Assembly (NCBI RefSeq): GCF_001425625.1
Contig: NZ_LMCP01000046.1
Coordinates: forward strand, 6,107 to 70,106
Length of the DNA: 64,000 nt
Source: Mesorhizobium sp. Root102
Lineage (GTDB): Bacteria > Pseudomonadota > Alphaproteobacteria > Rhizobiales > Rhizobiaceae
Direction of reading: 5' to 3'
Below, one piece after another: positions 4,170-22,500 of this stretch. Each line of letters begins with the position of its first letter. The first letter of the stretch is position 1. The translations under genes and the position numbers were made by a program. Below the pieces are notes generated by a model, which had not been told where the DNA came from, did no database searches, and saw only the letters and a program-made list of their open reading frames with translations.

Positions 4170-4318
4170 TGCACAAGGTGATCTCCCCGGGGTGAAGGCT
4201 CCGCGTTCGAGCCGCGGATGGTGCTGATAAGTCCAGTGCGGCCTTGTTGGAAACCATTCTGACACTTATTAAAGGGTTACAAATTGCCACTGCTGAAATG
4301 ATCGGAAAAGAGTCGAAA

Positions 4319-4894
4319 ATGGGTGAGCAAATGATTGGCGAACTTCGCGACGGTATGCCCTTCGTTGGAGGCAAGCTCTGGATCGATTTCGTCAATTCGG
4401 CGACCGCAACAATGGGCGATTTCCTTGAAACGCCCGACGGGTGGCGCCGTTGGATTGCGGCCGCGGACTTGCCGCCAGCGTCAACAGGAGAAGTGCCGAA
4501 TGTCGGACCCGCGCGTGACCTGCGGACGGCCCTAACGACCCTGTTGGCGCATCTGATCCGGCAAACCAGGCCGCCTCAGCAAGCCATCGACGCCGTCAAC
4601 CGGCATCTGGGAGAGGTTGGGGTCCGCAAGCAACTCCAGATTCGCGACGGCGTGCTGGCCATTGGTGCCGCGACCACGGGTGGCAATGATGCGCTGGCTG
4701 CTATCGCGCAGGATTTTGCCGACTTTGCCGCTGGTTTCGAACCACATCGTCTGCGGCACTGCAGCGGGCCGGACTGCACGCTGGCTTTCTACGACACCGC
4801 CCGCAACGCCACCCGGCGCTGGTGTTCCATGGCCCTGTGTGGCAACCGCCACAAGGTCAAGACGCACCGCGCGAGGAAGCTCGTCTGCGACTAG
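4319..4894 (+). CDS. CGNR zinc-finger (ABATE domain) regulator
   Basis: 191 residues from the chosen ATG; an in-frame start at 4244 would add 25 residues that look unlike the family. The N-terminus holds an ABATE-type stress-linked domain starting FVGGKLWIDFVNS. The C-terminus has the CGNR zinc finger with Cys148, Cys153, Cys169 and Cys174 (CSGPDC, then WCSMALCGNR). The family is thought to be DNA-binding and to respond to stress or ligands. It lies upstream of, and in the same direction as, the secreted hydrolase at 5090, with a 9-bp palindrome between them, so it may control that gene. Confidence 0.85.
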   Translation: MGEQMIGELRDGMPFVGGKLWIDFVNSATATMGDFLETPDGWRRWIAAADLPPASTGEVPNVGPARDLRTALTTLLAHLIRQTRPPQQAIDAVNRHLGEVGVRKQLQIRDGVLAIGAATTGGNDALAAIAQDFADFAAGFEPHRLRHCSGPDCTLAFYDTARNATRRWCSMALCGNRHKVKTHRARKLVCD

Positions 4895-4976
4895 GGTCCA
4901 ATCGACTCTCATTAAGCTGTGAGCTGGCTCTGTCAGAGCCATCCGAGAAACAAACGGGCAGTCGCGCACTGGGTGC

Positions 4977-4998
4977 CGCGTCACGGTATCGTGACGCG
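4977..4998. promoter_or_regulatory. Perfect 22-base inverted repeat upstream of the alpha/beta hydrolase
   Basis: Two perfect 9-base arms (4977-4985 and 4990-4998) flank the loop GTAT. There is no T run, so an operator is more likely than a terminator. A TTGACA hexamer follows at 5026-5031, but I see no good -10 at the right spacing. It lies 83 bases past the CGNR regulator stop and 92 bases before the hydrolase ATG. Confidence 0.45.
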
Positions 4999-5089
4999 CC
5001 CCTTGTGTAACCGATAAAAATGACGTTGACAGGTTTCGACAAATTCGACACCATTAAAACGTACAATTAACGGTTACAAGGTTCGCAAC

Positions 5090-6085
5090 ATGTTCCAGAC
5101 GTCATCTCTCCCGGGCAGTTCCGCCCTTTCCCGCTCCTGGCGCAGCGGTTTGATCGGCGCGCTACTCGCTGCTGTGGCTTCGATTCCATCCGTCTTTGCG
5201 GGCCAAGCGGCCAACGTCGAGACACTTTCGAAGACGGTGAAGGTGGATGGGCTCGACATCTTCTATCGCGAGGCCGGGCCAAAGGACGCGCCAGTCGTCT
5301 TGCTGCTGCACGGTTTTCCCTCTTCCTCGCACATGTATCGCAACCTGATCCCCAGGCTCGCGGCACACTACCGGGTCATCGCGCCGGACTATCCAGGTTT
5401 TGGCTATAGTTCAGCGCCAACACTTGACCATTTCGCCTATACGTTTGGTGCGGTCACCGACATCGTCGACCACTTTACCCAGACTGTCGGAGCGAAGAAT
5501 TATGTGCTCTTCATGCAGGACTATGGTGGCCCCGTCGGCTTCCGACTGGCGGTCAAGCATCCGGAGCGTCTGCGTGGCCTGATCATACAGAACGCGGTCG
5601 CAAACGTCGAAGGCTGGAACCCTGACGTGGTGAAGCAGCTTTCGCCTTTCTGGGTGAAACGCAACGCAGAGACGGAAAAGCCAATCCGCGACATTCTCAC
5701 GCCTGACGCCACGAAATTCGAATACACGCACGGCACCACGCAACCGGACAAACTGTCGCCAGATGCTTGGACCGTCGATCAGGCGGGCCTCGACCGGCCG
5801 GGCAATGTCGACATCCAACTCCAGTATTTCCACGACTACCAGACAAACGTCGCTCTCTATCCTGCGTGGGGTGCGTTTCTGAAATCGGCACAGCCGCCAC
5901 TCCTCATCGTCTGGGGCAGGAACGACCCATATTTCACGCTGAAGGGCGTGGACTATCTCAAGGAGTTGGTTCCGGGTGCAGAGGTGCATCTCTACGACGC
6001 CGGTCATTTCGCGCTCGAAACATATGGTGACGAGATCGCCGCAACCTCGCTCGAGTTCCTATCGCGATTGCCGAAGATCAATTGA
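5090..6085 (+). CDS. Secreted alpha/beta hydrolase with Asp nucleophile (haloalkane dehalogenase/epoxide hydrolase type)
   Basis: 331 residues. A signal-peptide-like N-terminus (hydrophobic 20-38, ending SVFAGQA) points to export. The fold markers are the oxyanion HGFP (74-77), nucleophile elbow MQDYGG with Asp144, acid region GRNDP (Asp279), and AGHF with His306. Asp in place of Ser at the elbow is typical of haloalkane dehalogenases and epoxide hydrolases, which form a covalent ester with Asp. The substrate is not predictable. The gene stands alone after the CGNR regulator and is followed by a hairpin at 6096-6127. Confidence 0.85.
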   Translation: MFQTSSLPGSSALSRSWRSGLIGALLAAVASIPSVFAGQAANVETLSKTVKVDGLDIFYREAGPKDAPVVLLLHGFPSSSHMYRNLIPRLAAHYRVIAPDYPGFGYSSAPTLDHFAYTFGAVTDIVDHFTQTVGAKNYVLFMQDYGGPVGFRLAVKHPERLRGLIIQNAVANVEGWNPDVVKQLSPFWVKRNAETEKPIRDILTPDATKFEYTHGTTQPDKLSPDAWTVDQAGLDRPGNVDIQLQYFHDYQTNVALYPAWGAFLKSAQPPLLIVWGRNDPYFTLKGVDYLKELVPGAEVHLYDAGHFALETYGDEIAATSLEFLSRLPKIN

Positions 6086-6274: not shown

Positions 6275-6982
6275 TCACATCGATTTCAAGACATAGGTTT
6301 CGTCGAAGTCGGCAAGCTTCGGATACGCGATTGTCGGGGCACACAGGAGCCCGAGGACGCGTTCGCGGTAACGAACGAGGCACTGCCGGCGCTCGCTGTC
6401 GCTGATGCGCGCTGGCGCATGCACGAGGAATGGCTCGATCACGGTGAAGCCCACAAAGTAGAGCATCCCGTGGTTGATTGGGAACAGGATCTCGGCGATT
6501 GGGCCGTTTAGTCCGCGGTTGGAATATATCAGCGGAGGCCCGCCGATTGTGACGGAACACATCGCGCGCTTTCCTGCCAAGACGCCGCGATCATACCATT
6601 TGCCGCCGCCATAGATGCGGCCACCCGACGCGAACATTCGGTCAACCCAGCCCTTGAGGATCGCCGGCAGCCCGAACCACCAGAGCGGAAACTGCAGGAT
6701 CAAGGCGTCGCACCAGAAAAGCTTGTCCATCTCGGCCTGGATGTCTGGAGCGAATCCGTCGTGGGCATCCGCATTCGCCTCCTCAGACTGCTGGTGGTAG
6801 TAGTTCGCGTCTCGAATGGTCGTGAAGTTGCGCCGGTCTGATACCGGATTGAAGCTCATGGCATAGAGATCGGAGATAACGACCTCGTGCCCCGCCGCAG
6901 ACAGTGCGTCCTGCGCCGAGCGGGTTAGGGCGCCGTTGAAGCTGTTGTGCTCCGGGTGGGCATGAACGATGAAAATGCGCAC
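6275..6982 (-). CDS. Flavodoxin-like NAD(P)H:quinone oxidoreductase
   Basis: 235 residues from GTG at 6982, which has GGGAAG just upstream; the longer frame to 7045 would overlap the DoxX gene. The fold is the NQO1/MdaB/KefF type: IFIVHAHPEHNSFNGAL at the FMN loop, then QFPLWWFGLPAILKGW and DRMF, the classic active-site strand of this family. These enzymes use FMN or FAD to pass two electrons from NAD(P)H to quinones, avoiding semiquinone radicals. It is the last gene of the bufferin operon, 25 bases after the DoxX gene. Confidence 0.85.
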   Translation of the reverse strand: MRIFIVHAHPEHNSFNGALTRSAQDALSAAGHEVVISDLYAMSFNPVSDRRNFTTIRDANYYHQQSEEANADAHDGFAPDIQAEMDKLFWCDALILQFPLWWFGLPAILKGWVDRMFASGGRIYGGGKWYDRGVLAGKRAMCSVTIGGPPLIYSNRGLNGPIAEILFPINHGMLYFVGFTVIEPFLVHAPARISDSERRQCLVRYRERVLGLLCAPTIAYPKLADFDETYVLKSM

Positions 6983-7007
6983 CGTGCTTCCCTGCTGGTC
7001 GAGATGT

Positions 7008-7484
7008 TCATTTTCCAGACGCTGAAAAGGTCCGCTCGGCGACATAGTCGAGCGAGAAGGCGCCGGCGCCCCGGGTCAGCACGAGCAGCAGCAGCGAGGC
7101 CCACAGCAGATGCTCGGCCCAGTTCTCCGGGAAAACGAAGATCTGGATTACCGATACGACACCGAGCAGCAGCAGTGCGCCGAGGCGAGAGAATAGTCCC
7201 AGGAAAAGCAGCACCGCCCCGGTGATCTCTGCCGTTGTCGCCAGCGGCGCCGCGATCGACGGATCGATGAGCGGTAGATTGTATTCGCTGGCGAACAGCT
7301 GCAGCGTCACCGGCCAAGACGCCAGCTTCGATTGTGCAGACTGCCAGAAGACATGCGCAATCGCCACGCGAGCTGCGAGCTGGACCAGCGAAAATGGGAT
7401 ACGCTCCGGCAACTTGATCACTCGTCGGTAAAGACCAACAAGGCCGGCAGGGCGAGGAGGGGAATATTCCGGTATCGCAGTCAT
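7008..7484 (-). CDS. DoxX family protein of the bufferin operon
   Basis: 158 residues with four predicted membrane segments (IAHVFWQSAQSKLASW, ITGAVLLFLGLFSRLGALLLL, VSVIQIFVF, LLWASLLLLVLTRG). DoxX proteins are regular partners of DUF2282/DUF692/DUF2063 clusters, including the gold-induced gig genes of Cupriavidus, where the equivalent is called gigT. It starts 12 bases after the DUF2063 gene ends. A membrane redox or export role for the bufferin system is inferred. Confidence 0.85.
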   Translation of the reverse strand: MTAIPEYSPPRPAGLVGLYRRVIKLPERIPFSLVQLAARVAIAHVFWQSAQSKLASWPVTLQLFASEYNLPLIDPSIAAPLATTAEITGAVLLFLGLFSRLGALLLLGVVSVIQIFVFPENWAEHLLWASLLLLVLTRGAGAFSLDYVAERTFSASGK

Positions 7485-7495
7485 GGTCGTTTCCT

Positions 7496-8281
7496 TCAGT
7501 TTGAGAGAGGGTGCACCGGGACGCGCACGTCGGTGACGAGCCTGTCGCGGAACAGACGCACAAGCGCTGAAACCAGGTCGAAGGCCGGGTCGAGCGCCAA
7601 GGCGCGGCCAGTGGCATGCTCAAGGCCGAAGCCGTGCTTCAGCGAATGCCAGAAGGCGAAGCTCGCGCGGTCGAGCAGAAAAAGCCGCACGTAGTTCCTC
7701 GATCGCCAAAGCGCCACCCGTTCGGGGCGCCTTGTCCAGGTGATTTTTTCATCGACCGCAGTCTCCTTTTGATGCTCCATCCATACCGATAGGATCGACC
7801 AGTGGGAGACGATCAGTCGCAGTGAAGGCTGGAGCAGGATATCCGGCGACAGCCCAAGGTCGGTGCTGTCGTATTCTGCGAGACTGCGGGCCGGCAGCGA
7901 AGCTGTATCGAGCGCTTCGGCAATGGCCCATTCGAGCCGCGCGGTCTCGGCGACGATTGGCATGTCGGACAGCGTGTCGATGGTTTTCAGGAAGCGAGGG
8001 AAGCCCGCGCCATAACGCGCCAGGCGTGACTCCGCCGGCGGATGCCGTCGAATGAATTCGCTCGCCATAAAGCGGAAGAAACGTTCGTCGACGAGGCGAG
8101 CCGTAACGGGGAAGACCGCCATCAGCACAGCAGTCAACGAACTGCGCGTATTGTTCTGGTAGATGCGCAGGCGAGCCATTGGGTCGGCCTTGCCGGCGGT
8201 CAGCATTTTTGCGTCGATCACTGGCTCCATGGCCAGCACCGAGCGCGCCACGATGGTCTGCAGATGTTCAAGCGGCAGCAT
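7496..8281 (-). CDS. bufC: BufC-type DUF2063 protein, partner of the MNIO enzyme
   Basis: 261 residues from ATG 8281; the frame upstream is antisense-like and not part of the protein. The N-terminus LEHLQTIVARSVLA is the DUF2063 putative DNA-binding-like start that in studied systems serves as peptide or enzyme partner domain. It follows the DUF692 gene with a 14-base overlap. In known bufferin pathways BufC works with BufB to bind and modify the BufA precursor in the cytoplasm before export. The assignment rests on family order plus these signatures. Confidence 0.8.
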   Translation of the reverse strand: MLPLEHLQTIVARSVLAMEPVIDAKMLTAGKADPMARLRIYQNNTRSSLTAVLMAVFPVTARLVDERFFRFMASEFIRRHPPAESRLARYGAGFPRFLKTIDTLSDMPIVAETARLEWAIAEALDTASLPARSLAEYDSTDLGLSPDILLQPSLRLIVSHWSILSVWMEHQKETAVDEKITWTRRPERVALWRSRNYVRLFLLDRASFAFWHSLKHGFGLEHATGRALALDPAFDLVSALVRLFRDRLVTDVRVPVHPLSN

Positions 8282-9296
8282 GATATCCTCCCTCGATTGT
8301 CGGCAAGGCCATGTGCATGGCCGGTTTGGCTCTGGCAGCGGCAAATGCCGCAAGCACAGGCATGCTTGTCTGAGAGCTTTCGAAAGCCGGTAGCGTGTGC
8401 GCCGGCGGGGCCATAGTCGTGGCGATGTGCCGCGCGGCCTGCTTGCGGTTGAACATGACCGAAGCGGTGAGCATGTCGGCCCACATGGCTTCACCAAGCA
8501 GAACGTCGAGAACCGGCACATCGGTATCCCATTCGATCAGCGTAGGGCGCGGTCCAAGACTGGTGATGGCATGCTGGTAGAGGTGCCAGACAACTGGCGG
8601 CACGCGAGAGCCGTGGTCGTCGATAAGCACCGTGTCGCCGCCGACCTGATTGGTCGCGTGACCGGCAAGGTGAATTTCGCCGATGGCATCGGCAGGCAAA
8701 GCGTCGATGAAGGTCTTGGCGTCGTATTGGAGATTGTGCGCCGAAACCTGGACATTGTTGACGTCCAGAAGCAGGCCGCAGCCAGTTTGCGCCACCAGCC
8801 CAGCCAGAAATTCAGCTTCATTCATGGAGGAGTCCGCAAACGCGACATAGGCGGACAGGTTCTCGATCAGCACACGCCGCTTCAGCGTATCTTGGATGGT
8901 CGCTACATTGCGCGCCACGATCGCCAGCGCCTCTTCGTCATAGCGAAGCGGCAGCAGGTCATTGAGATAGGCTCCGTCGGCAACGCTCCAGGCAAGATGC
9001 TCCGAAACAAGATCAGGCTGGAACCGCTCGCAGACCTTGCGCAGCCTTTCCAGATGATCGCGGTCCACGCCTTGTGCGCTGCCCAGAGACAGGCCGACGC
9101 CATGCACCGACAGCGGATATATTTGGCGCAGCCGTTCAAGCGCCTCGACGGCGGCGCCGTCGCCCATATAGTTCTCGGCATGAACTTCGAGCCAGCCAGC
9201 GGAGGGTCTGCGGGTCAGCATCTCGCTGATGTGAGGAGAGCGCAGACCGATGCCAGCGGATGCCGGGATCGTGAGGGGCTGAAATGCACGGGACAT
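8268..9296 (-). CDS. bufB: BufB-type multinuclear non-haem iron oxidase (DUF692, MNIO)
   Basis: 342 residues from ATG 9296, preceded by AAGGGAG; an in-frame TTG 18 bases upstream is less likely. It is a TIM-barrel enzyme with MNIO landmarks: WLEVHAENYMG, VSEHLAWS, LLLDVNNVQVSAHN, IGEIHLAGHA and TLIEWDTDVP, whose His, Asp and Glu residues bind the iron cluster in the family. MNIOs install thiooxazole or related changes on Cys of small peptides. About 60 Ala/Pro-rich residues at the end extend past the barrel. It sits between the bufA and bufC genes. Confidence 0.88.
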   Translation of the reverse strand: MSRAFQPLTIPASAGIGLRSPHISEMLTRRPSAGWLEVHAENYMGDGAAVEALERLRQIYPLSVHGVGLSLGSAQGVDRDHLERLRKVCERFQPDLVSEHLAWSVADGAYLNDLLPLRYDEEALAIVARNVATIQDTLKRRVLIENLSAYVAFADSSMNEAEFLAGLVAQTGCGLLLDVNNVQVSAHNLQYDAKTFIDALPADAIGEIHLAGHATNQVGGDTVLIDDHGSRVPPVVWHLYQHAITSLGPRPTLIEWDTDVPVLDVLLGEAMWADMLTASVMFNRKQAARHIATTMAPPAHTLPAFESSQTSMPVLAAFAAARAKPAMHMALPTIEGGYHAAA

Positions 9297-9341
9297 CGGT
9301 CTGCTCCCTTCCAAAGGGGGTTGGCTTGAAGTCTGGGTCGG

Positions 9342-9611
9342 TCAGGCTTTCGGCTTGTCGCTGCCGCCGGTGATCTTGGCGCAGCTGCCGGCCGGCACGT
9401 AGAGCCAGGAGTCCGGCTGGTTGTCGGCGGTCGAGGTGCCGGCGCATGAATGCGTCGCAGTCTGGCAGTCGTTCTGGCCAGCCTTGACGACGCCATAGCA
9501 CTTCTCGAACGAGAAGCTGGGCTGAGCGGCGGGGCCGCTATAGGCTGCAGTTGCAGCAAGCGAGGTGGCGGCCGCGAGGGCCGATCCGATGAGGGTCTTG
9601 GTGTTGATCAC
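9342..9611 (-). CDS. bufA: Bufferin precursor peptide (DUF2282)
   Basis: 89 residues from GTG 9611, chosen because AGGAG lies eight bases upstream; the longer frame to 9713 has no such site. Residues 1-23 form a Sec signal peptide ([18 protein letters not shown]). The mature part has four cysteines at 38, 49, 56 and 77 in the bufferin pattern EKCYGVV..NDC..HSCAG..VPAGSC. In Caulobacter such peptides are modified at Cys by BufB/BufC and bind copper in the periplasm; that role is transferred here by family. It is the first gene of a five-gene minus operon. Confidence 0.88.
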
Positions 9612-9755
9612 GGTCGTTTCTCCTGATTGCGTTTCGAGGGAAGACTGACCTAGCGGCCTGTCTGCAAACAGTGTCGTCGAACGTGCGATGAAGCTGAAAT
9701 GCTGTCTCGGCATGGATTTGATACGCGGTCACTATGTTGAGGAGGATAACGTGCA

Positions 9756-9786
9756 AAAGCCCTCCGGCGGGGAACCGGAGGGCTTT
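9756..9786 (-). terminator. Intrinsic terminator after the patatin-like gene
   Basis: Perfect 12-base arms (9756-9767 and 9775-9786) with a seven-base loop. On the minus strand the stem runs into TTTT, so it ends the minus-strand patatin-like gene that stops at 9843. It also insulates the bufferin operon. Confidence 0.85.
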
Positions 9787-9842
9787 GGCGCCTGCACTTC
9801 GTGAGCGGAGCGAAGCGGGCGCGGCTAGGCGGAGGGAGGCGC

Positions 9843-10685
9843 CTAGACGTATCGATTTTTGTTGTCGACGACCGAGCTTTCGCTCAAGGTTGGATGGTCG
9901 GCGAGAAGCCAGTCCTCGGCTCGCTGGCGACCGCGGTCACGCATGTCGGTCAATTCGCCCCAGTCGATCCAAGGCCTGGTAAACAAGGCAGCGCTTGTTC
10001 TGTGATGGCTGTCGAAGAGGATAGATCCAGAGTTCACGGCATTTGCGGCGAGGCAGTAAGCCGCACAAGGCGTCATGCACCCGGAGGGTTTGCCGCTGAC
10101 AATGAGCCAATGCCCAGCCTCGATCGGCTGCACTGCTGGCAAGGTCGAAAAATCGCATTCGCCCCAATACGTATCGCCATCGATTTCCACGGGCGGGAAT
10201 AGAAATGGGACTGTCGCCCCCGCCAAAATAGCGTCGATCGACAACTGGTCGCCGGAGAAAATCGTCACTGTGTCGGTGCGTGCATTTGAAGTCAGGATGT
10301 TGAGCTCCAACTGGCAGCTGTTTTTGTGCAACTCGGCAATGTCGATCGACTGTTCCAGGATCGATTTCAATGGATTGGCTGTCGCGGCCACAGACGTCGA
10401 TGCGTGGCTGACGCGCCGCCAGAAATTGGTAAGCGCCGTCCTTGCCCCACGCCTGCCGCCCAAAGCCAGTCCGTAGGCAAGAACCGCCGCTTCTATGCCC
10501 CCGAAACCGGATGCGGTGATGCTGCGGAAGGAAAGACGAGGTTCATCCAGCAGACGATCGAGCACGCCCCAGACAAATGCGCCGTGTGCGTCGCTTGCTA
10601 GCGCAATGTCGATCAGCTGGCGGTCTTCCGTCGCGGGTCTCGCACCGGCAATGAAGGCTTGGTCGGTTGCGGCCTGGATTTGCAT
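9843..10685 (-). CDS. Patatin-like protein with lost catalytic dyad
   Basis: 280 residues from ATG 10685, with GGAGGAG eight bases upstream. The fold follows patatin-like phospholipases closely (AHGAFVWGVLDRLLDEPRL, VLAYGLALGG, FWRRVS, GATVPFLFPPVEI, TYWGE). The three catalytic elements are all changed. The glycine-rich oxyanion loop reads ASDAHG. The GxSxG elbow reads ASGFGG, putting Gly60 where Ser should be. The DG(G/A) motif reads GEC, with Gly175 for Asp. The frame is open and has a good start and terminator, so this looks like a kept pseudoenzyme rather than decay. It stands as its own unit between the bufferin operon and a LysR gene. Confidence 0.75.
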   Translation of the reverse strand: MQIQAATDQAFIAGARPATEDRQLIDIALASDAHGAFVWGVLDRLLDEPRLSFRSITASGFGGIEAAVLAYGLALGGRRGARTALTNFWRRVSHASTSVAATANPLKSILEQSIDIAELHKNSCQLELNILTSNARTDTVTIFSGDQLSIDAILAGATVPFLFPPVEIDGDTYWGECDFSTLPAVQPIEAGHWLIVSGKPSGCMTPCAAYCLAANAVNSGSILFDSHHRTSAALFTRPWIDWGELTDMRDRGRQRAEDWLLADHPTLSESSVVDNKNRYV

Positions 10686-11178: not shown

Positions 11179-11423
11179 GCTGCTCCGGCCGCTAACCGCA
11201 GCCCCAGGGCTCGGGCAGCCAGGGATGATGTCAACGATGGCGAGCGGTTGGCCTGCCGTCCTCTTCGAAGGTGGTCAGCTGCTCCGCTACCCAATTTGTC
11301 CGTACCGCGTGCCATGACAGACCGCTATCGACTTTATAGCCGCAGTGCATTGGCGCCAAAGCGAGCCTTACGGCAGTCTCCGAAGCACGAACAGCCACGT
11401 CTGCAATTCGGGGACAAATCGGC

Positions 11424-12338
11424 ATGGACATTCACCACATCCGCTACTTCCTGGCCGTGTGCGAGACGCGAAACTTCACGCGCGCAGGTGAAAAGTGCAA
11501 CGTCACTCAGCCGGCGCTATCCCGCGCCATTCAGCAACTTGAGGAGGAGGTCGGAGGGCTACTGTTTCGCCGCGAACGAAGCTTGACCCACCTGACCGAT
11601 CTAGGTGTGCTGCTTCGCCCCCGTTTTCAGCAGATCCTCGACGAACTGACTGGAGTGCGGCAGGAGGCATCAAGGTTCCTGTGCCTGGAGAACGCCAACC
11701 TTAAGGTCGGCGTCATGTGCACCATCGGCCCCCGTCGCTTCACCGGTCTGCTGACCGACTTTAACCGGCGTCAGCAGGGCATCCAGCTGCAACTGGTTGA
11801 GGGCGTCCCGGCATCACTCTCCCAACTTCTAGAGTCCGGCGAGATCGACGTCGCCATTATGGCGTCAAGCGACAGCTTTCCGGACCGCTTCGACGTCACA
11901 CCGCTTTATCGCGAGCGCTTTGTCCTCGCCTTTCCAAACGGCCATCGGCTGGCCCGCAATGACAACGTGGCCATCTCCGAACTCGATGGTGAAAATTATC
12001 TCAGGCGGCTCAATTGCGAGTATCGCGATCACCTCGCGGGTCTGTGCACGGATCGGGGCGTGAAGCTCAGGATCTCCTATGCCAGCGAACGCGAGGACTG
12101 GATCCAGAATATGGTGTCGGGAGGACTGGGCATCTGCTTCATCCCGGAATTCAGTGCGGTGATTCCAGGGCTGCAGGTCCGTCCCGTGATTGATCCTGAG
12201 GTCTGGCGGGAAGTATCCCTGGTTGTCGTTGCGGGGCGCAGGTTCTCGCCTGCGGCATCGGCTTTCGTAAACAGCGTCAAGGCGTATGGCTGGCCTGAGA
12301 GCGCAATCGTCCAGGCCATCCAAAAGACCGCTGCCTGA
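11424..12338 (+). CDS. LysR family transcriptional regulator, paralogue A
   Basis: 304 residues. The DNA-binding region reads IHHIRYFLAVCETRNFTRAG, NVTQPALSRAI and GGLLFRRERSLTHLTDLG. These blocks recur almost unchanged in the LysRs at 14881-15792 and 20447-21352, so the three are paralogues. The effector domain begins around residue 90. It precedes a same-direction cupin, MFS and DUF302 set and may control it. A GC-rich imperfect hairpin lies just after the stop (about 12360-12390). Confidence 0.9.
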   Translation: MDIHHIRYFLAVCETRNFTRAGEKCNVTQPALSRAIQQLEEEVGGLLFRRERSLTHLTDLGVLLRPRFQQILDELTGVRQEASRFLCLENANLKVGVMCTIGPRRFTGLLTDFNRRQQGIQLQLVEGVPASLSQLLESGEIDVAIMASSDSFPDRFDVTPLYRERFVLAFPNGHRLARNDNVAISELDGENYLRRLNCEYRDHLAGLCTDRGVKLRISYASEREDWIQNMVSGGLGICFIPEFSAVIPGLQVRPVIDPEVWREVSLVVVAGRRFSPAASAFVNSVKAYGWPESAIVQAIQKTAA

Positions 12339-12532: not shown

Positions 12533-13015
12533 ATGGCTACCAAAAAACTCACCCTTTCGTTTGCGGCAGGTCTGCTTTCGGCAACCGCTGCTTTTTCCTC
12601 TGCTCCAGCCTTCGCCGGCGACTGCCCCGCCGGACAGGCCGCCACGACCGACATCCAGGAACATCCCAGCAAGCCGATCGGCGTGACCGACACCGTTCTT
12701 TCGGCGATCGATCTCAGCCCGAAGGGCGAAGCCTGGAAGGGCAACATGCTGCGTCTGCGCAAGCTCGTCGTTCAGCCGGGCGGCGTGGTGCCGTGGCATG
12801 AGCACACGGTTCGCCCCGCTAACATTATCGTCGTCGAGGGCTCGATCACTGAATACGCCAGCACCTGCAAGGTCGGAATCGAGCACCCTGCTGGCGATGT
12901 GACCGCTGAGTTCGGCCAGCTCGCCCATTGGTGGAAGAACAACGGAAAGGTGCCCGCGGTGCTCTATTCCGCCGACGTCCTTCCGCCCGCGATGCACGAC
13001 GACCACATGATGTGA
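12533..13015 (+). CDS. Secreted cupin-domain protein
   Basis: 160 residues from ATG 12533, which has AAGGAG upstream; the frame before it is open but lacks a signal peptide. Residues 1-28 are a signal peptide ending APAFAG. A single cupin barrel follows, with metal-type residues in VPWHEHTVRPANIIVVEGS and a late HWW. Two cysteines, one just after the cleavage site and one in ASTCKVG, could form a disulfide. The family binds a metal and small ligands; no reaction can be named. It precedes an MFS exporter by 92 bases. Confidence 0.8.
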   Translation: MATKKLTLSFAAGLLSATAAFSSAPAFAGDCPAGQAATTDIQEHPSKPIGVTDTVLSAIDLSPKGEAWKGNMLRLRKLVVQPGGVVPWHEHTVRPANIIVVEGSITEYASTCKVGIEHPAGDVTAEFGQLAHWWKNNGKVPAVLYSADVLPPAMHDDHMM

Positions 13016-13107: not shown

Positions 13108-14310
13108 ATGACAACCAGTGAACAGACAGAAATGACGCCGCTGCACAACGTGGCCGCAGATAGTCGGCGCTTTGGCCTTGTTGCGCTGATCGCATTTCTT
13201 ACGCTTGTCGATCTGTTCGCCACCCAGGCAATACTGCCGTCACTGGTGATAAAATTCGGCGTCAGCCGTGCAACTATGGGGTTCGCCGTCAACGCCAGCA
13301 CGTTCGGCATGGCGGTGGCAGGTATCGCTGTTGCCCTCTTCGGGCGCGGCATCGATCGCCGCAATGGCATCTGGATCAGCTTGGCCATATTGGCGATCCC
13401 GACAACACTGCTTTCGCAGACCGACAGCATAGTCGTCTTTGCCCTCCTGCGCGTTGCGCAAGGCCTGTGCATGTCGACCGCGTTCACGCTGACGATGGCC
13501 TACCTGGCCGAACATTTCTCCGCACGGCAGACGACCAGTGCGCTCGCCGCCTATGTAACGGGCAATGTCGCCAGCAATTTCTTCGGACGACTGATGTCGG
13601 CCGCCGTCGCCGACACATTCGGCATCTCCACCAACTTTCTGACCTTCGCGGCTCTCAATTTGTCTGGCGCGGCGCTTGTCTGGTTCACGCTACAAAAGAC
13701 TTCGGCAGCGATGCGCGTCGATACGGTCGGTCATTCTGCCCGCGCATCTTGGAAAGGCCCTCTGGAGAATGCCGAACTACGTGCTTGTTTCGCGATCGGC
13801 TTCCTGATCCTTTTCGTCTTCATAGGCACCTTCACCTATGTGAATTTCCAGCTTGTCGCCCCGCCGCTGTCGCTGTCACCGATGGCACTCGGACTGATCT
13901 ATTTCGTCTTCCTGCCATCGATGCTGACCACGCCACTCGCCGGACGTGTGACGGCCGGTCTCGGCCCGAGGATTGGCATCGGTGCAACGCTTGCGATGGC
14001 AATCGTTGGGCTGCTGCTGTTGCTCACAACCAGCCTGCCGATCGTCCTTGCAGGGATGGCGCTGGTCGCCATGGGAACCTTCCTGGCGCAAGCGATAGCA
14101 ACGGGACACGTCAGCCGGGCCGCTTCGCGCGATCGCACCGCCGCGAGCGGCATCTACTTGGCCTCCTACTATGGGGGCGGGCTCGCTGGCAGCTTCGTCA
14201 TCGGACAGATTTACGACCGGATCGGGTGGACGGCATGCGTGGCCGTGCTCGCCGCCTTCCTTGCCGGCGCCATCGCGGTGGCGCGCGTGCTGCAACCTCC
14301 AAAGACGTGA
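13108..14310 (+). CDS. MFS transporter (DHA1-type exporter)
   Basis: 400 residues with about 12 hydrophobic segments. The loop 2-3 motif is GRGIDRRNG, and motif C-like glycines occur in helix 5. Similar proteins export drugs, sugars or amino acids with proton exchange. It lies between a secreted cupin and a DUF302 protein, all plus strand, after LysR paralogue A, so it may belong to the same stress response. Confidence 0.85.
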   Translation: MTTSEQTEMTPLHNVAADSRRFGLVALIAFLTLVDLFATQAILPSLVIKFGVSRATMGFAVNASTFGMAVAGIAVALFGRGIDRRNGIWISLAILAIPTTLLSQTDSIVVFALLRVAQGLCMSTAFTLTMAYLAEHFSARQTTSALAAYVTGNVASNFFGRLMSAAVADTFGISTNFLTFAALNLSGAALVWFTLQKTSAAMRVDTVGHSARASWKGPLENAELRACFAIGFLILFVFIGTFTYVNFQLVAPPLSLSPMALGLIYFVFLPSMLTTPLAGRVTAGLGPRIGIGATLAMAIVGLLLLLTTSLPIVLAGMALVAMGTFLAQAIATGHVSRAASRDRTAASGIYLASYYGGGLAGSFVIGQIYDRIGWTACVAVLAAFLAGAIAVARVLQPPKT

Positions 14311-14352: not shown

Positions 14353-14817
14353 ATGACCAACTACCTCAAGACCATGATTGCTGGAGCCGCCCTACTGATA
14401 GCTGCCGCCATACCAGCCGCCGCTTCTGATGGCGTTGTCACGGTGAAGAGCGACTATTCCGTCACTGAGACCGTCGCCCGCATCAAGAAGGATGTCCTCA
14501 AGAAAGGCATCAAGTTCTTCGGCGTCATCGACCAGGCAAAGCTGGGCAAAAATGCCGGCAACGAAGTCAAGCCGTCGCGACTGGTGATGTTCGGCAACCC
14601 GGCCCTCGGGACAACCTTCATCACATCCAATCCCGAAGCCGGTCTCGACTGGCCGGTGCGCGTGCTCGTCTATCAGACTGCGGATGGCGCGGTTTACGCC
14701 GCCTATAGCGACTTCGACTGGATCGCCAAGCGTCATGGCATCACCGACCGCGCCCCGCAGTTCAAGATGGCAACCGAGGTCATCCAGTCGGTGACCTCGA
14801 CAATCAGGAAGAACTGA
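14353..14817 (+). CDS. DUF302 family periplasmic protein
   Basis: 154 residues. Signal peptide about 1-24 (AGAALLIAAAIPAAAS). The DUF302 core follows: VARIKKDVLKKGIKFFGVIDQ, RLVMFGNPALGT and LPWVR-type strands (DWPVRVLVYQ). DUF302 proteins are small alpha-beta proteins often linked to oxidative, chlorine or metal stress and DsrE/thioredoxin genes; no activity is proven. Its start follows the MFS gene by 42 bases with AAAGGAG in front, so co-transcription is likely. Confidence 0.85.
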   Translation: MTNYLKTMIAGAALLIAAAIPAAASDGVVTVKSDYSVTETVARIKKDVLKKGIKFFGVIDQAKLGKNAGNEVKPSRLVMFGNPALGTTFITSNPEAGLDWPVRVLVYQTADGAVYAAYSDFDWIAKRHGITDRAPQFKMATEVIQSVTSTIRKN

Positions 14818-14880: not shown

Positions 14881-15792
14881 CTATTCAGCGGCGGACAACG
14901 CCTTTGCACGCTCGCCGAACCACTTCTTCTGCGTGGCCTCGCGCACGAGTGCGCCAACCGCCGGCGAATGCCTGCGGCCGCGCACCGTGACGAGATTGAC
15001 CTCGCGCCAGAATTCCGGATCGGTGATCGGCAACGGCACCACTCCGGGGTGCTTGGCGGTATGCTCAGGCATGAATCCGAAACCAAGCCCGGCGGCGATC
15101 ATTGCGAGTGTCCAATCGTCACGATCGCTCCAGTAAACGTGACTGACGGTCACGCCCTGCGAGGCAAGAATGGCATCGGTATAACCGGCAAATTCACAAT
15201 TGTTGCGGTGGATGTAGGTCTCATTGCTCATATCCGTCACCCGCACGCTGCGCTGGTTGGCCAGGCGATGGTTCAGATGAACTGCCATCACCATCTGTTC
15301 CTGGAACAACGGCAAGGAGTGAACCTCCTCATCGGGCACGTTTGACGGCAACGCGTAAATTGCTGCCTCGAGATCTCCCCCGAGCAGTCGTTTGCGCAAG
15401 CTCGGTGCATCGGCATCGCAAAGATGAAGCTCCACGCCCGGATGGTGCGTTCGCACGGACGAGATGAGCTCGATGATTTCATCCGGAGCAATCGTGCTCA
15501 TGATGCCGACCCGGAGAGGCGTTTTCTTCAGGTGCACGTATTGCTCGGCGATCTGCTTTGCCTGCCTGGAGTTCTCGAAAACGCCTTCGAGATAGGTCTC
15601 GACCATGCGACCGAGTTCAGTCAGATGGGTGAAGCGCCGTTCACGGTGAAAAAGCGCGCCGCCGAACTCATCTTCGAGCAACTTGATCGCGCGTGACAGT
15701 GCCGGCTGCGTAACGTTGCACAGCTCGGCCGCCCTGGTGAAATTCATTTCCTTGGCGACGGCCAAGAAATACCTGACCTGGCTGATCTCCAC
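14881..15792 (-). CDS. LysR family transcriptional regulator, paralogue B
   Basis: 303 residues from GTG 15792, chosen for the GGGGGAG upstream and because the protein then starts VEISQVRYFLAVAKE like its paralogues; the longer frame to 16068 adds 92 unlike residues. The helix-turn-helix block is FTRAAELCNVTQPALSRAIK, then HLTELG. It is divergent from the bdhA-patatin-NDH-2 operon with a 278-base spacer, so it most likely controls that operon. Confidence 0.88.
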   Translation of the reverse strand: MEISQVRYFLAVAKEMNFTRAAELCNVTQPALSRAIKLLEDEFGGALFHRERRFTHLTELGRMVETYLEGVFENSRQAKQIAEQYVHLKKTPLRVGIMSTIAPDEIIELISSVRTHHPGVELHLCDADAPSLRKRLLGGDLEAAIYALPSNVPDEEVHSLPLFQEQMVMAVHLNHRLANQRSVRVTDMSNETYIHRNNCEFAGYTDAILASQGVTVSHVYWSDRDDWTLAMIAAGLGFGFMPEHTAKHPGVVPLPITDPEFWREVNLVTVRGRRHSPAVGALVREATQKKWFGERAKALSAAE

Positions 15793-16070
15793 TGCACGCT
15801 CCCCCAGCGGCTGGCATACGGCACGACCCGCATTGCCCGGTGATCTTACTAGTTGCCCCAACGTCAAACAACCCGATCCGGCATTGAAAACCCAGGCGAC
15901 AGATTGACGATCTGACGGTCGGCTATCGAATCCATGTCTCAACGGCATTTCCGCTGTCCCGAGCCAGCCGCCATACTTGGCCCCAGAAGTCGAGACCCGG
16001 GTGCTAAGGCCCGTTGCTCGCAGCCCTTTGCAGGCCATTTCGGCCGCAGCTTCAACCGAAGGAAACAACG

Positions 16071-16853
16071 ATGCTCAGAGGAAAGACGGCACTGATCACA
16101 GGCTCGACCAGCGGCATCGGCCAAGGCATTGCCGAAGCCTTCGCCGCGAAGGGCTGCAACATCATTCTGAACGGCTTCGGCGATCCCGGTGCGATCGAGT
16201 CGCTGAGGGCAAAGCTTGCCGCGAACCATGGTGTGACTGTTTGCTACGACGGCGCGGACATGAGCAAGGGCAGCGCGATCACCGCGATGATGGACAAGGC
16301 AATCGCCGAGTTCGGCGCAGTAGACATCCTCGTCAACAATGCCGGCATCCAGCATGTCGCGCCGATCGACGACTTTCCGATCGAGAAATTCGAGGCGGTC
16401 GTGGCGATCGATCTCATGTCGTCCTTCTACACGATCCGGCGCGCGCTGCAGGGCATGAAAGAGCGCAAATGGGGTCGCATCATCAATGTTGCATCTGCCC
16501 ACGCGCTCGTCGCTTCACCGTATAAATCCGCTTACGTCGCTGCCAAGCACGGGGTCGCCGGTCTGACCAAGACGGTCGCGCTTGAAGTCGCTGAGCAAGG
16601 CATCACCGTCAACGCGGTGTGCCCAGGATACGTCCTCACCCCATTGGTCGAAAAGCAGATACCCGACACAGCCAAGGCACGCGGGATCACGGAAGAACAG
16701 GTGATCAAGGACGTGCTCCTGGCAGCCCAGCCAACCAAACAGTTCGTGACTGTAGCTGAGGTAGCGGCGCTCTGCCTATTCCTGGCCTCAGAGGATGCGG
16801 CTTCGATCACCGGCGCGATCATGCCGATCGAAGGCGGCTGGACCGCCCATTGA
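16071..16853 (+). CDS. bdhA: D-3-hydroxybutyrate dehydrogenase (SDR)
   Basis: 260 residues, the usual SDR length, from ATG 16071 (GAAGGAA upstream). The NAD-binding motif is TGSTSGIG (10-17), the structural NNAG follows at 89-92, and the catalytic set is Ser142, Tyr155 and Lys159. The stretch VASAHALVASPYKSAYVAAK is highly typical of 3-hydroxybutyrate dehydrogenases, which turn 3-hydroxybutyrate to acetoacetate with NAD in PHB turnover. It starts an operon with a patatin phospholipase and NDH-2 and is divergent from LysR paralogue B. Confidence 0.88.
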   Translation: MLRGKTALITGSTSGIGQGIAEAFAAKGCNIILNGFGDPGAIESLRAKLAANHGVTVCYDGADMSKGSAITAMMDKAIAEFGAVDILVNNAGIQHVAPIDDFPIEKFEAVVAIDLMSSFYTIRRALQGMKERKWGRIINVASAHALVASPYKSAYVAAKHGVAGLTKTVALEVAEQGITVNAVCPGYVLTPLVEKQIPDTAKARGITEEQVIKDVLLAAQPTKQFVTVAEVAALCLFLASEDAASITGAIMPIEGGWTAH

Positions 16854-16879
16854 ATCCGGCAACGAGGAGCTGAACAACC

Positions 16880-18037
16880 ATGAACAAGATCACCAGAAAT
16901 CCTTCGGCGTCGGAACCTGTGCAAGCGGCCGCCAGTGTGGCCGATGGTTCGGTCCAGCGACAGACCGTGCTGGTCCTGCAGGGCGGCGGCGCGCTGGGCG
17001 CGTATCAGGCCGGCGTCTACCAGGCGATGGTCGAAGGCGGTATCGAGCCGGACTGGGTGATTGGCACCTCGATCGGCGCAATTAACGCCGCGCTCATTGC
17101 CGGGAACGAACCACAAGACCGCCTGCCAAGACTGCGCGAATTCTGGGATGGCGTCGGTCGCAGCAGTCCGCTCGACGAGTTCTTCCGGATGATGGTTCCA
17201 AGCAACATTTTTGCCAATATGGGCACGGTGATACGTGGCATACCGGGATTCTTCGAGCCCAACCCAAGCGCAATGTTCGGGGTCAATCGCGAAGTGGGTG
17301 TGGAGAATGCATCCTACTACACCACCGATCCGCTGAAGCGGACGCTAAACAACCTTATCGACTTCGATTGCCTCAACCGCCGTTACACGCGGCTGACAGT
17401 CGGCGCTGTCAACGTCAACACCAGCGAACTCAAATATTTCGATAGCAGCCTGATGCCGTTGTCGGTGGCCCATATCATGGCGTCGGGCGCCTTGCCGCCG
17501 GCTTTCCCGGCAGTCTGCATCGACGGCGAGCCCTACTGGGATGGCGGCATCTATTCGAACACGCCTATCGAGGTCGTGCTGGACGAGCGTCCGCGGCGCG
17601 ACGCGCTGATCTTCGCCGTCAACATGTGGCAACCGCGCGCCACTGAACCGAAATCGATCTGGCAGGTCATGGGCCGGCAGAAGGATCTTCAATACGCCAG
17701 CCGCGGACGTAGCCACGTCGCCCGCCAGGAGCAACTGCATCGTTTGCGCCACGTCGTGCGCGAAATGGGAAAGTTGGTCCCTGAAGAGCGGCGCGAGGAT
17801 CTAATGTTCAAGGAGCTTGCGGCCTACGGCTGTCCGTCGGTCATGCATCTTGTGCGGCTGCTGTCACCGCGCCTCGACGGAGAGGATCACACCAAGGATA
17901 TCGACTTTACCCGCGCAGGCATTCGCACCCGCTGGGAGGCCGGATACGAGCACGGGCAACGCGTCCTCTTGGAGAAGCCGTGGGAATGCGACGTCGACCT
18001 GCTCCAGGGCATCGTTATTCACGAATCGCAAGAGTGA
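16880..18037 (+). CDS. Patatin-like phospholipase (DUF3734 type)
   Basis: 385 residues. All catalytic elements are present: oxyanion GGGALG (35-40), elbow GTSIG with Ser64, and DGG with Asp221. The C-terminal DUF3734-type region includes RGRSHVARQEQLHRLRHVV. It is a cytoplasmic acyl hydrolase. Being 26 bases after bdhA, a pairing seen in other alphaproteobacteria, it may act on lipids or PHB-linked esters; that is inferred. It contrasts with the dead patatin at 9843-10685. Confidence 0.88.
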   Translation: MNKITRNPSASEPVQAAASVADGSVQRQTVLVLQGGGALGAYQAGVYQAMVEGGIEPDWVIGTSIGAINAALIAGNEPQDRLPRLREFWDGVGRSSPLDEFFRMMVPSNIFANMGTVIRGIPGFFEPNPSAMFGVNREVGVENASYYTTDPLKRTLNNLIDFDCLNRRYTRLTVGAVNVNTSELKYFDSSLMPLSVAHIMASGALPPAFPAVCIDGEPYWDGGIYSNTPIEVVLDERPRRDALIFAVNMWQPRATEPKSIWQVMGRQKDLQYASRGRSHVARQEQLHRLRHVVREMGKLVPEERREDLMFKELAAYGCPSVMHLVRLLSPRLDGEDHTKDIDFTRAGIRTRWEAGYEHGQRVLLEKPWECDVDLLQGIVIHESQE

Positions 18038-18079
18038 GTTGTTCCAGCGGCGAGCCCGAGGAAAAGACGGAGACTACCG

Positions 18080-19474
18080 ATGCAGATCATCACTCCTGGG
18101 ATGCGGCTGGTTCCGGAAGCCGTGCTCGCCAACGACGCCGCGCTTTTACGCACGATACCAGAGACGCCATCCCACGCCGACAGTTCACGGCATCGCGTAG
18201 TCATCGTCGGCGGAGGTGCCGGTGGACTCGAGTTGGCAACACGGCTCGGCAGGAAATTCGGCAAGCGGCGGCTTTCCATAACGCTCGTCGATCGCAATCG
18301 CACACATGTCTGGAAGCCACTTCTGCACGAGGTGGCGTCCGGTGCGTTGAACCCGTCGAGCGATGCGGTGGAATACATCGCACATGCCAACAGGCACCAC
18401 TATCGCTACCGGATCGGTGAAGTCGTCGGCATTGACCGCGCCAAGCGCCAGGTTTTTGTGGCGCCGAGCTTCGACGACGACGGCAGACGGATCATTCCGC
18501 CGCGGGTGTTGGGCTACGACACGCTGGTGCTGGCCGTGGGCAGCGTCAGCAACGATTTCGGGACGCCGGGGGCGGCGCGTCACGCCATTGCGCTCGACAC
18601 GACCGGTCAGGCCTCCCGTTTCAACAAGCGCATGATCGACGCCTGCCTGCGTGCGAACGCCCAATACGAGAAGCTTTCACCAGGCCAACTCCATTGCGTC
18701 ATCGTTGGCGCCGGGGCCACCGGCGTTGAACTGGCCGCCGAGTTGCATAAGTCGATGCGAGAAATCGCCTCGCACAATCTCGACAACATCGATTTCGAAA
18801 GGCTGATCCGCATCACCATCGTCGAGGCAGAACCGCGCATCCTGCCGGCTTTGCCGGAACACCTTGCGCGCTCTTCCGCGCGCCGGCTTGTTGATCTCGG
18901 CGTCCAGATCCGATGCGGCATAAAGGTCACCGAAGTGACAGAAGACGGTATCAGGCTTGGCGAGAAGCTGTTCGTGCCAGCTGAACTCGTCGTATGGTCC
19001 GCGGGGATAAAGGCGCCGGATTTTCTGAAGCAACTCGATGGCCTCGATACGGATCGCATCAACCGCCTGGTCGTGGATGAGACGCTGCGGGCCATGGGAG
19101 ACGAAAACGTGTTTGCGATCGGCGACTGCGCGCGTTGTGTGTTGCCCGGCAGCGAAGATCCCTTGCCGCCGCGCGCCCAGACGGCCCATCAGCAAGCCGA
19201 TCATATGGTCAAGGTGATTGCGGCACGCCTCGAAGGGCAGGAGGCGCCGGCGTTCCGTTACCGCGACTACGGTTCTCTCGTTTCACTGGCCGACTACGGC
19301 ACCTTTGGCAGCCTGGTGGGCGGACTGAAGGTCGAGGGTTTTCTTGCCCGGCTGATGTATCATTCGCTCTACAAGATGCATCTCAAGGCGGTGCACGGGA
19401 CCTTCAAGACCATGCGGGATACGATCGTGGGAATCCTGTCGCACCGCACCAAACCGCGGGTCAAATTGCATTGA
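18080..19474 (+). CDS. Type II NADH:quinone oxidoreductase-like flavoprotein
   Basis: 464 residues. The FAD Rossmann motif is VIVGGGAGGLELA (about 41-53), the NADH Rossmann motif VIVGAGATGVELA (about 207-219), and the late FAD motif VFAIGDCAR (345-352). An unusual 35-40 residue lead comes before the first motif. The C-terminal helix (FLARLMYHSLYKMHL) can sit on the membrane as in NDH-2. It would pass NADH electrons to quinone without pumping protons, which fits re-oxidising NADH from the 3-hydroxybutyrate dehydrogenase of the same operon. Confidence 0.85.
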   Translation: MQIITPGMRLVPEAVLANDAALLRTIPETPSHADSSRHRVVIVGGGAGGLELATRLGRKFGKRRLSITLVDRNRTHVWKPLLHEVASGALNPSSDAVEYIAHANRHHYRYRIGEVVGIDRAKRQVFVAPSFDDDGRRIIPPRVLGYDTLVLAVGSVSNDFGTPGAARHAIALDTTGQASRFNKRMIDACLRANAQYEKLSPGQLHCVIVGAGATGVELAAELHKSMREIASHNLDNIDFERLIRITIVEAEPRILPALPEHLARSSARRLVDLGVQIRCGIKVTEVTEDGIRLGEKLFVPAELVVWSAGIKAPDFLKQLDGLDTDRINRLVVDETLRAMGDENVFAIGDCARCVLPGSEDPLPPRAQTAHQQADHMVKVIAARLEGQEAPAFRYRDYGSLVSLADYGTFGSLVGGLKVEGFLARLMYHSLYKMHLKAVHGTFKTMRDTIVGILSHRTKPRVKLH

Positions 19475-19613: not shown

Positions 19614-19758
19614 TGTAACGATTCGAGCCGCAATACCGAACAGAAGATGAATCCGCATAGCTTCGATGCACGCAGGGCATCGACTCCATGCAAGAAAAGC
19701 ATGGCCGTGCCCGTGGGGCTTCAATGTTAGGCTGCATGGAAATTGCGAAGGTGCAGAA

Positions 19759-20463
19759 ATGGCCGCCGACGACCAGCCAATGACATTTGAACAGTCCGTC
19801 CAGGCTGCCATCGAACTCGATGCACCTCTCAACGAGAGGCTGGCGGTGATCGCGAGCGCAGTGCGCCGACTGAACTCGGAGTTCGCTGACGCGGTTGACC
19901 GGCTCGTGGCGCGCCTCAAGGAACAGGGAGCTGGTGCAAGTGCTCCCGCCCCCGGCGATGTTATGCCCGCATTCCTGTTGCCTGATGACGAGGGCAGGCT
20001 CGTGAGCCTATCTGAAATCCTTAGCCACGGGCCGGCCGTCATTACCTTTCAGCGCGGACATTGGTGTCCCTATTGTCGCCTGAATGCGATCGGCATCGTC
20101 GAAGCCCAACAAGAGATTTCGACGCTGCGCGGCCAAGTCGTGGTGATCATGCCGGAGCGGCGCAAATTCGCAAAGGCAATGAAGGCCTCGGTTGGTGCTC
20201 AGTTTCCTTTCCTGACGGATATCGACAATGGCTACGCCTTGTCCCTCAACCTGGCGATCTGGGTGGGAGCCGAGATGGAGCGGTTGATGGGCCTCGGCCT
20301 CGATCTGCCGAACTATCAGGGCAACAGCAGCTGGTTCCTGCCGATCCCTGCTACTTTCGTCGTTGGAACTGATGGCATCGTCACAGATCGGTTCGTCGAT
20401 CCCGACTATCGTCGGCGGATGGACATTGACGACTTGATCGCGGCGCTCAGGCGGGCTCGCTGA
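19759..20463 (+). CDS. Peroxiredoxin-like (AhpC/TSA family) protein A
   Basis: 234 residues from ATG 19759 (GAAGGTG upstream). The thioredoxin-fold active site is FQRGHWCPYC with Cys103 and Cys106, in the place of the peroxidatic Cys of AhpC/TSA proteins; the loop before it is GDVMPAFLLPDDEG. A CxxC here is typical of the peroxiredoxin-like branch that reduces peroxides or disulfides. Its last 17 bases overlap the convergent LysR at 20447. It shares layout with protein B at 22501. Confidence 0.85.
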   Translation: MAADDQPMTFEQSVQAAIELDAPLNERLAVIASAVRRLNSEFADAVDRLVARLKEQGAGASAPAPGDVMPAFLLPDDEGRLVSLSEILSHGPAVITFQRGHWCPYCRLNAIGIVEAQQEISTLRGQVVVIMPERRKFAKAMKASVGAQFPFLTDIDNGYALSLNLAIWVGAEMERLMGLGLDLPNYQGNSSWFLPIPATFVVGTDGIVTDRFVDPDYRRRMDIDDLIAALRRAR

Positions 20464-22390: not shown

Positions 22391-22500
22391 CCATTTTCCG
22401 AATGATTGCTATCCTTTCCGGCAGGCTACCCCTGTTTTGGGAAATAGGCGAGGACGTTTCCGCCGCTTTGAGAGCGGTGAGAAATCTTCGGAGTAATTCC

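Follow-up and report, generated by a model that had tools for sequence, protein, structure and literature searches.

A bufferin-1-type operon in Mesorhizobium with a quinone reductase slot behind doxX

Introduction

Bufferin-1 (Buf1) clusters and the gold-induced (GIG) operons combine a precursor peptide carrying four conserved cysteines with genes for an MNIO, a DUF2063 and a DoxX protein, arranged in like order. DUF2282 products are counted among the thiooxazole peptides that bind copper. Copper, gold or oxidative stress often switches on the pathways for these peptides, and related thiooxazole peptides took up copper once ascorbate had reduced Cu(II) (PMC13097082). Published Buf1 clusters are described, in the main text of the bufferin survey, as accompanied by a sigma factor and NrsF (PMC12452194), and a bufferin cluster on a Paraburkholderia plasmid carries a sigma factor and a DUF1109 gene. 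Here, we analyse a cluster of this kind in Mesorhizobium sp. Root102 (genome size 6.76 Mb), within a 64,000-nt stretch of contig NZ_LMCP01000046.1 that we call the window. It differs from the Buf1 and GIG systems in having LysR genes and, behind doxX, a slot occupied by a quinone reductase gene (QR).

Two further systems, compared here as the relevant passages of the cited reports describe them, resemble parts of this arrangement. The Legionella pneumophila GIG homologue cluster H4 (lpg0671-lpg0676) shares the link between DoxX and an NADH dehydrogenase, an adenylate cyclase and bufferin-type genes, but its DoxX domain lies within a much larger NADH dehydrogenase as one protein, and its genes are on differing strands (PMC5413113). 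The RclABC system of Escherichia coli, induced by hypochlorous acid, pairs a flavoprotein Cu(II) reductase with a small periplasmic partner and an inner-membrane one; having no MNIO or modified peptide, and another flavoprotein and regulator, it is a parallel in function only (PMC7527725).

Results

A Buf1-type operon with a fifth gene

The five genes bufA-bufB-bufC-doxX-QR form a row at positions 6275-9611 of the window, all on the minus strand. The precursor gene bufA (9342..9611) starts with GTG and encodes 89 aa with four cysteines (Pfam DUF2282, 91 bits, cut-off 22.4) and an N-terminus that, judged by eye, resembles a signal peptide. The maturase gene bufB (8268..9296), an MNIO (DUF692) gene akin to the solved DUF692 structure 3bww, scores 336.1 bits with Pfam MbnB_TglH_ChrH (cut-off 25) and 365 bits with NCBIfam MNIO_BufB (cut-off 310). 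It is overlapped by 14 nt by bufC (7496..8281), which encodes the DUF2063 partner protein (Pfam DUF2063, 68.6 bits, cut-off 27.2), and bufC is followed by doxX (7008..7484), coding for a membrane protein (Pfam DoxX, 53.1 bits, cut-off 23.6). The accessory gene QR (6275..6982, GTG start, 235 aa) encodes a flavodoxin-fold quinone reductase of the NQO1/NQO2 type (Pfam Flavodoxin_2, 160 bits, cut-off 27). Its start codon lies 25 nt past the doxX stop; the gap is 19-28 nt in relatives with a readable QR start, which is GTG or ATG.

Among the 146 Mesorhizobium genomes, 50 loci in 49 genomes, including that of the window, belong to the same type (type A: L032, which is the window, L154-L200, L204 and L205). 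Not counted with them are the type-B loci L201-L203 described below, the loci L206-L209 with a QR paralogue, and genome G247 (L218), whose contig ends before the buf genes. The closest named Mesorhizobium loci reach 93% BufB identity. Across 54 loci of both types, which yield 45 distinct BufA sequences, neither the four cysteines nor the residues surrounding the first three vary. A DUF2282 precursor with four cysteines, adjoined by MNIO, DUF2063 and DoxX genes that all exceed their Pfam cut-offs, supports assignment of the cluster as a Buf1-type ribosomally synthesized and post-translationally modified peptide (RiPP) operon by the sequence features tested; the NCBIfam models BufA2, HvfC and HvfX gave only matches below cut-off (30.1 of 60, 37 of 142 and 49.8 of 80). 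A preliminary description of this DNA had read the order DUF2282-DUF692-DUF2063-DoxX as that of a bufferin operon, with a four-cysteine precursor and a quinone reductase 25 bases downstream of doxX, and our scores and alignments bear out each of these points. We regard the anatomy of the operon and the history of its genes, as given here, as very probably correct.

The same slot holds NDH-2 in a sister clade

A sister group of loci, type B, shares about 66-76% BufB identity with the window and is found in allied Mesorhizobium, Ensifer/Sinorhizobium, Rhizobium and one metagenome genome. No QR match was found nearby in the type-B loci. Instead, in 11/11 loci compared, a different reductase gene, read in the same direction, stands directly behind doxX, and a possible start codon for it lies 0-4 nt past the doxX stop. 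The slot protein of locus L035 matches Pyr_redox_2 (176 bits) and NDH2_C (36.3, cut-off 27.7), and aligns with a solved NADH:ubiquinone reductase at 375 bits; domains and kinship thus both identify the type-B slot gene as NDH-2, a type II NADH:quinone oxidoreductase. On an annotated type-B plasmid (of the plasmid matches, L300 and the record behind L036 were read gene by gene), as in further type-B loci, the row runs 3-hydroxybutyrate dehydrogenase-patatin-bufA-bufB-bufC-doxX-NDH-2-adenylate cyclase-DUF3307, and a left arm, DUF302-MFS-cupin-LysR, diverges from it at the dehydrogenase end; L203 has lost part of this arm.

The doxX-NDH-2 pair also occurs outside the type-B clade, in two Microvirga loci (L096, L100) and in L211 and L319 of other families, with the remaining gene order shuffled. 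Further afield, we examined 163 distant bufferin loci, 64 from a first search and 99 of the best-scoring places outside the family from a second (G969, seemingly identical to G971, was dropped; some loci are cut at contig ends, and species may recur between the two sets). NDH-2 was near the bufferin genes in 6/163, which leads us to read the pairing from these sequences as the mark of a subgroup and not of bufferins generally. Fusions of DoxX with NDH-2 were not annotated on plasmids among the matches listed (60 of 311 and 60 of 85).

These observations bear on the idea that QR or NDH-2 maintains the iron oxidation state of BufB for peptide modification. A related MNIO is said to need a mixed-valent diiron cofactor (PMC13419390), and QR and BufB are both expected in the cytosol. 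However, NDH-2 partners doxX and not bufB, even where bufB lies apart (L211), and bufABC loci without a nearby reductase are the rule, so that we think such a donor role improbable.

Several lineages also have a class III adenylate/guanylate cyclase gene close to their bufferin genes (L035:10809-12701, L034:10765-12687, L300:12594-14477; near L226, L229, L232, L241, L250, L270 and L319); the copies scanned match Cache weakly. Its presence beside bufferin genes parallels the published Legionella cluster.

QR is an NQO-type gene with a history of repeated loss

The closest solved relatives of QR are the bacterial quinone reductase 4gi5 (167 bits) and then NQO1/NQO2 (about 152-158 bits), from which QR is set apart by its place behind doxX in a bufferin operon. 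By this kinship it is of the NQO type and a predicted NAD(P)H:quinone reductase. The KefF/MdaB-like label that it was initially given does not hold: MdaB, at 47 bits, is far below 4gi5, and the scores with the KefF (67.9 of 210) and KefG (54.9 of 240) models are far under the curated cut-offs, for which reasons we reject all three identities.

Of the 50 type-A operons, 22 have an intact QR, 12 have a broken copy or a remnant, and in 16 none was detected; where a draft genome shows a single frameshift, this may be an assembly error. Meanwhile, doxX is whole in 50/50, bufA in 49/49 and bufB in 48/49 (both are off the contig in L205), and bufC in 48/49, one further bufC being truncated by a contig end. 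L154, scored as undetected, retains behind doxX 56 bp that match the final part of QR, likely a deletion scar. On a tree of 47 of the 50 operons (L187, L204 and L205 each lack a complete gene), the distribution of intact QR requires at least 11 changes. In 21 of the operons with intact QR, the median ratio of nonsynonymous to synonymous substitution rates (dN/dS) is 0.11 for QR, 0.12 for doxX, 0.14 for bufB and bufC, and 0.06 for bufA, values by which the intact QR copies are under purifying selection. Orthologues of at least 79% identity occupy 30 loci in 29/146 Mesorhizobium genomes, every one at a buf locus; the next homologue (60% identity, in G175) is sited elsewhere, in 13 kb that contain none of the other query genes, and the closest plasmid relatives among the matches listed are from Nostoc (61%) and Vibrio (about 49%). 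The confinement of all 30 close orthologues to buf loci and the constraint on intact copies, set against repeated loss, make QR a dedicated yet dispensable Mesorhizobium accessory of these loci, as judged by its distribution. It is not a general fifth bufferin gene, a role that we reject on its absence from all 163 distant loci (three-sequence profile, at least 60 bits). The earlier view of QR as an extension of the bufferin operon therefore stands for Mesorhizobium, where 22/50 operons have it intact, and fails as a general statement.

The downstream flank has a history of its own. The 5 kb from doxX onward are about 92-93% identical to L205, and a 2.9-kb part past QR is 94.6% identical to L174. 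The genes behind QR (4244-6085), encoding an alpha/beta hydrolase and an ABATE/CGNR zinc finger protein, are also present in L174 and L205, and were not found in the operons closest to the window by bufABC. Since the flank matches L205 and L174 rather than the nearest operons, recombination behind doxX is possible.

Such a history would also suit a passenger gene, one that came to lie behind doxX in an ancestral Mesorhizobium, serves an unrelated role and is now being lost: the many broken or undetected copies, the number of changes on the tree, the L154 scar and the flank common to L205 and L174 all speak for it. On the other hand, the dN/dS of intact QR is on par with that of doxX, no close orthologue was found outside buf loci in the 146 Mesorhizobium genomes, and in the sister clade the slot is occupied by another quinone reductase. 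We consider a mere passenger unlikely.

A second operon shares a rare 29-bp element with bufA

Beside a LysR gene (LysR2), a separate plus-strand operon (16071-19474) encodes a 3-hydroxybutyrate dehydrogenase (3HBDH), a patatin and an NDH-2-like protein, the gene for the last being about 8.5 kb from the bufferin genes. The short-chain dehydrogenase/reductase gene 3HBDH (16071..16853; ATG start picked by eye) reaches 372.8 bits with NCBIfam PHB_DH (cut-off 307) when scanned from 16044. The patatin-like phospholipase with DUF3734 (16880..18037) has the GGG, GxSxG and DGG motifs all present, and the NDH-2-like NADH:quinone oxidoreductase (18080..19474) matches Pyr_redox_2 at 176 bits, with no NDH2_C match listed beside it and with NDH-2 as its best solved relatives (152 bits). 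We considered whether this gene is the type-B slot gene relocated; the two are only about 34-36% identical. The genome has a 59% copy on contig C20, and the 16 kb read around it gave no match to doxX or to buf genes.

Both operons of the window are preceded by a 29-bp element of the pattern CTATCGAAWCCATGYCNNNACRGCATTTC. The site before bufA (9696..9724, minus strand) has 2 mismatches and is present in 48/49 type-A loci; that before the 3HBDH-patatin-NDH-2 row (15923..15951, plus strand) matches exactly and is present in 45/46. With up to 3 mismatches allowed, the 6.76-Mb genome has no other site, and a reversed-pattern control gave 0; as the pattern was derived from its own sites, this does not amount to the prediction of a motif and is fairly taken to mean that the genome contains two very similar sites without a third. 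In type B, the element precedes bufA in 9/9 loci scanned (0-2 mismatches) and, in weaker form, 3HBDH in 7/9 (4-6 mismatches). A control on 1.14 Mb of other bufferin loci gave 4 matches at up to 6 mismatches. At this same threshold, L082 has the bufA site only, the second site of L035 is on the opposite strand, and L319, L222 and L301 have no site.

Upstream of bufA, 48/49 type-A loci carry the dyad ATGC-N7-GCAT, which occurs 5 times in the 64-kb window and upstream of bufA in 3/140 distant loci. LysR-type operators follow a rule of T-N11-A dyads. We think it rather likely that the bufA and 3HBDH-patatin-NDH-2 operons form one shared regulon.

Flanking genes and the region upstream of bufA

Next to bufA lies pat' (9843..10685, minus strand), encoding a patatin-like protein (Pfam Patatin, 35.7 bits) in which the usual catalytic motifs are missing: the GGG oxyanion motif in 48/48 type-A copies and DGG in 47/48. 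Its frame is open past the likely start, save for one near-end stop in L192, and evolves fast (dN/dS 0.29, in 14 operons), so that pat' resembles a catalytically dead patatin that has nonetheless been retained. Between pat' and bufA, a terminator-like hairpin (9753..9786, minus strand) with only four T after the stem is conserved in 48 aligned type-A intergenic sequences, and the 56-nt stretch 9735-9790 folds at -28 kcal/mol (z -6.26). Because this hairpin parts the two genes, bufA to QR are probably their own transcript, and a single plain transcript of pat' and bufA seems unlikely. A sigma-70 promoter scan returned 2 sites against 1.7 expected, and the same scan overlooked the bufA hairpin.

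Farther out, on the plus strand, are LysR1 (11424..12338; Pfam HTH_1 and LysR_substrate), which stands beside the cluster in both types; a small cupin gene (12533..13015), whose product has a signal-peptide-like N-terminus by eye and which is found in 51/146 Mesorhizobium genomes (25 loci flagged as broken have matches short of the first 20-28 residues only and were not scored so); and the MFS transporter (13108..14310; Pfam MFS_1, 103 bits) and DUF302 (14422..14811; Pfam DUF302, 55.8 bits) genes, both syntenic in type B. LysR2 (14920..15792, minus strand; HTH_1, LysR_substrate) is divergent from the 3HBDH operon. Just upstream of LysR1, the T-N11-A dyad CTAT-N7-ATAG (11325-11339) is single in the window, and Azospirillum L301 has a similar dyad between LysR and bufA. 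Past the NDH-2 row, two AhpC/TSA-Redoxin (peroxiredoxin-like) genes (19666-20463 and 22402-23166, plus strand) stand with more LysR genes, hinting at a wider oxidant-response island.

Discussion

Taken together, the Buf1-type operon, the slot behind doxX that holds QR in one clade and NDH-2 in its sister, and the rare element shared with a second operon, which contains the NDH-2-like gene, suggest a bufferin system linked to quinone reduction, and we put the probability of this proposal, short of any copper-reduction step, at about 0.5. In outline, metal or oxidant stress would act through one LysR-type regulator to turn on both operons, and BufB and BufC would modify the peptide, which on export would capture copper in the periplasm. 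QR and/or NDH-2 would feed electrons from NAD(P)H to the quinone pool, DoxX being a possible membrane partner, and the quinol pool would hold copper as Cu(I) for the peptide and curb quinone or semiquinone damage. QR would then be a dispensable booster, adding to or replacing NDH-2, and its repeated loss fits this because NDH-2 would do the same job. The suggestion in the preliminary description that metal binding by the peptide is tied to quinone redox is thus strengthened at the level of genes, by the type-B slot, the four outside loci and the rare element; the coupling of quinone reduction to copper capture itself is something that we infer.

As for the copper step, E. coli NDH-2 has been reported to have Cu(II)-reductase activity, and the enzyme probably matters for growth when copper stress is imposed (PMC3817396); a review classes it under unspecific, quinol-dependent Cu(II) reduction (PMC7558416). 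The copper uptake of related thiooxazole peptides after reduction by ascorbate and the Legionella gene that joins DoxX to an NADH dehydrogenase also speak for the proposal. That the reductases supply electrons for Cu(II) reduction, as opposed to general quinone detoxification, seems to us rather unlikely on present evidence. More doubtful still is the specific version, in which DoxX and an NADH:quinone oxidoreductase would reduce Cu(II) to Cu(I) (or gold) at the membrane and pass it to the thiooxazole peptide, with NDH-2 and QR as interchangeable feeders.

Several observations weigh against the proposed link. QR is broken or undetected in 28/50 type-A operons and is missing from the four operons nearest to the window on the tree. 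A reductase is seldom near distant bufferin genes, and among the cases where NDH-2 is near, it sits elsewhere than behind doxX in Microvirga L102, as also in Rokuibacteriota L106 and Roseiarcus L146. Relatives of NDH-2 accompany other stress genes too; on a Klebsiella plasmid, for example, these serve formaldehyde detoxification. No copy of the element, a candidate LysR operator, was found before bufA at fewer than 6 mismatches in the four outside loci with the doxX-NDH-2 pair (L096, L100, L211, L319). Lastly, NDH-2 and QR should face the cytosol, and the peptide is expected to be exported. The preliminary description had itself named findings that would count against its reading, among them separation of the reductase from the cluster in relatives, which is indeed what we see in those 28 operons and in the 163 distant loci, and a promoter of its own, for which the 19-28-nt gap offers no support, although one could lie within doxX.

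An alternative is a general stress regulon, in which QR and NDH-2 guard against quinones, hypochlorite and redox cyclers under a regulator common with the bufferin, and no electrons reach copper or the peptide. NQO1 and NQO2, the nearest named kin of QR, are detoxifying quinone reductases, and the 3HBDH, patatin, MFS and cupin genes of the proposed regulon have no evident copper role. In addition, a DUF692 RiPP gene set of Pseudomonas aeruginosa is described as expressed with sodium hypochlorite (PMC9023270). The strict position of NDH-2 beside doxX, even where the other gene order is shuffled, suggests a tighter tie than such a regulon would need. We hold this explanation to be somewhat short of an even chance, and a plain oxidant-stress regulon to be about as likely as the mechanism that we favour.

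The main text of the bufferin survey describes a core with a sigma factor and NrsF, unlike the arrangement seen here, in which LysR genes and a quinone reductase slot accompany the cluster. Unrelated genes entered the counts of that survey only if they lay no more than 10 bp from a relevant one, a limit at which QR, 25 nt away, would be missed and the type-B NDH-2 would not; its main text does not use the words flavodoxin, quinone or NAD, and it notes redox genes (oxidored_molybd, ferric reductase) beside some EGKCG-type clusters (PMC12452194). We found no paper containing bufferin and NDH-2 as whole words, in a search outside which most subscription journals lie, and none combining patatin, NADH dehydrogenase, LysR, 3-hydroxybutyrate dehydrogenase and operon.

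DoxX is a core member of many bufferin clusters. The recurring doxX-NDH-2 pair, the ability of a quinone reductase with a different fold to take that slot and the rare element together give it a testable role, in which DoxX may bring respiratory electrons to a copper-trapping peptide, and the natural presence and absence of QR across Mesorhizobium offers ready-made comparisons.

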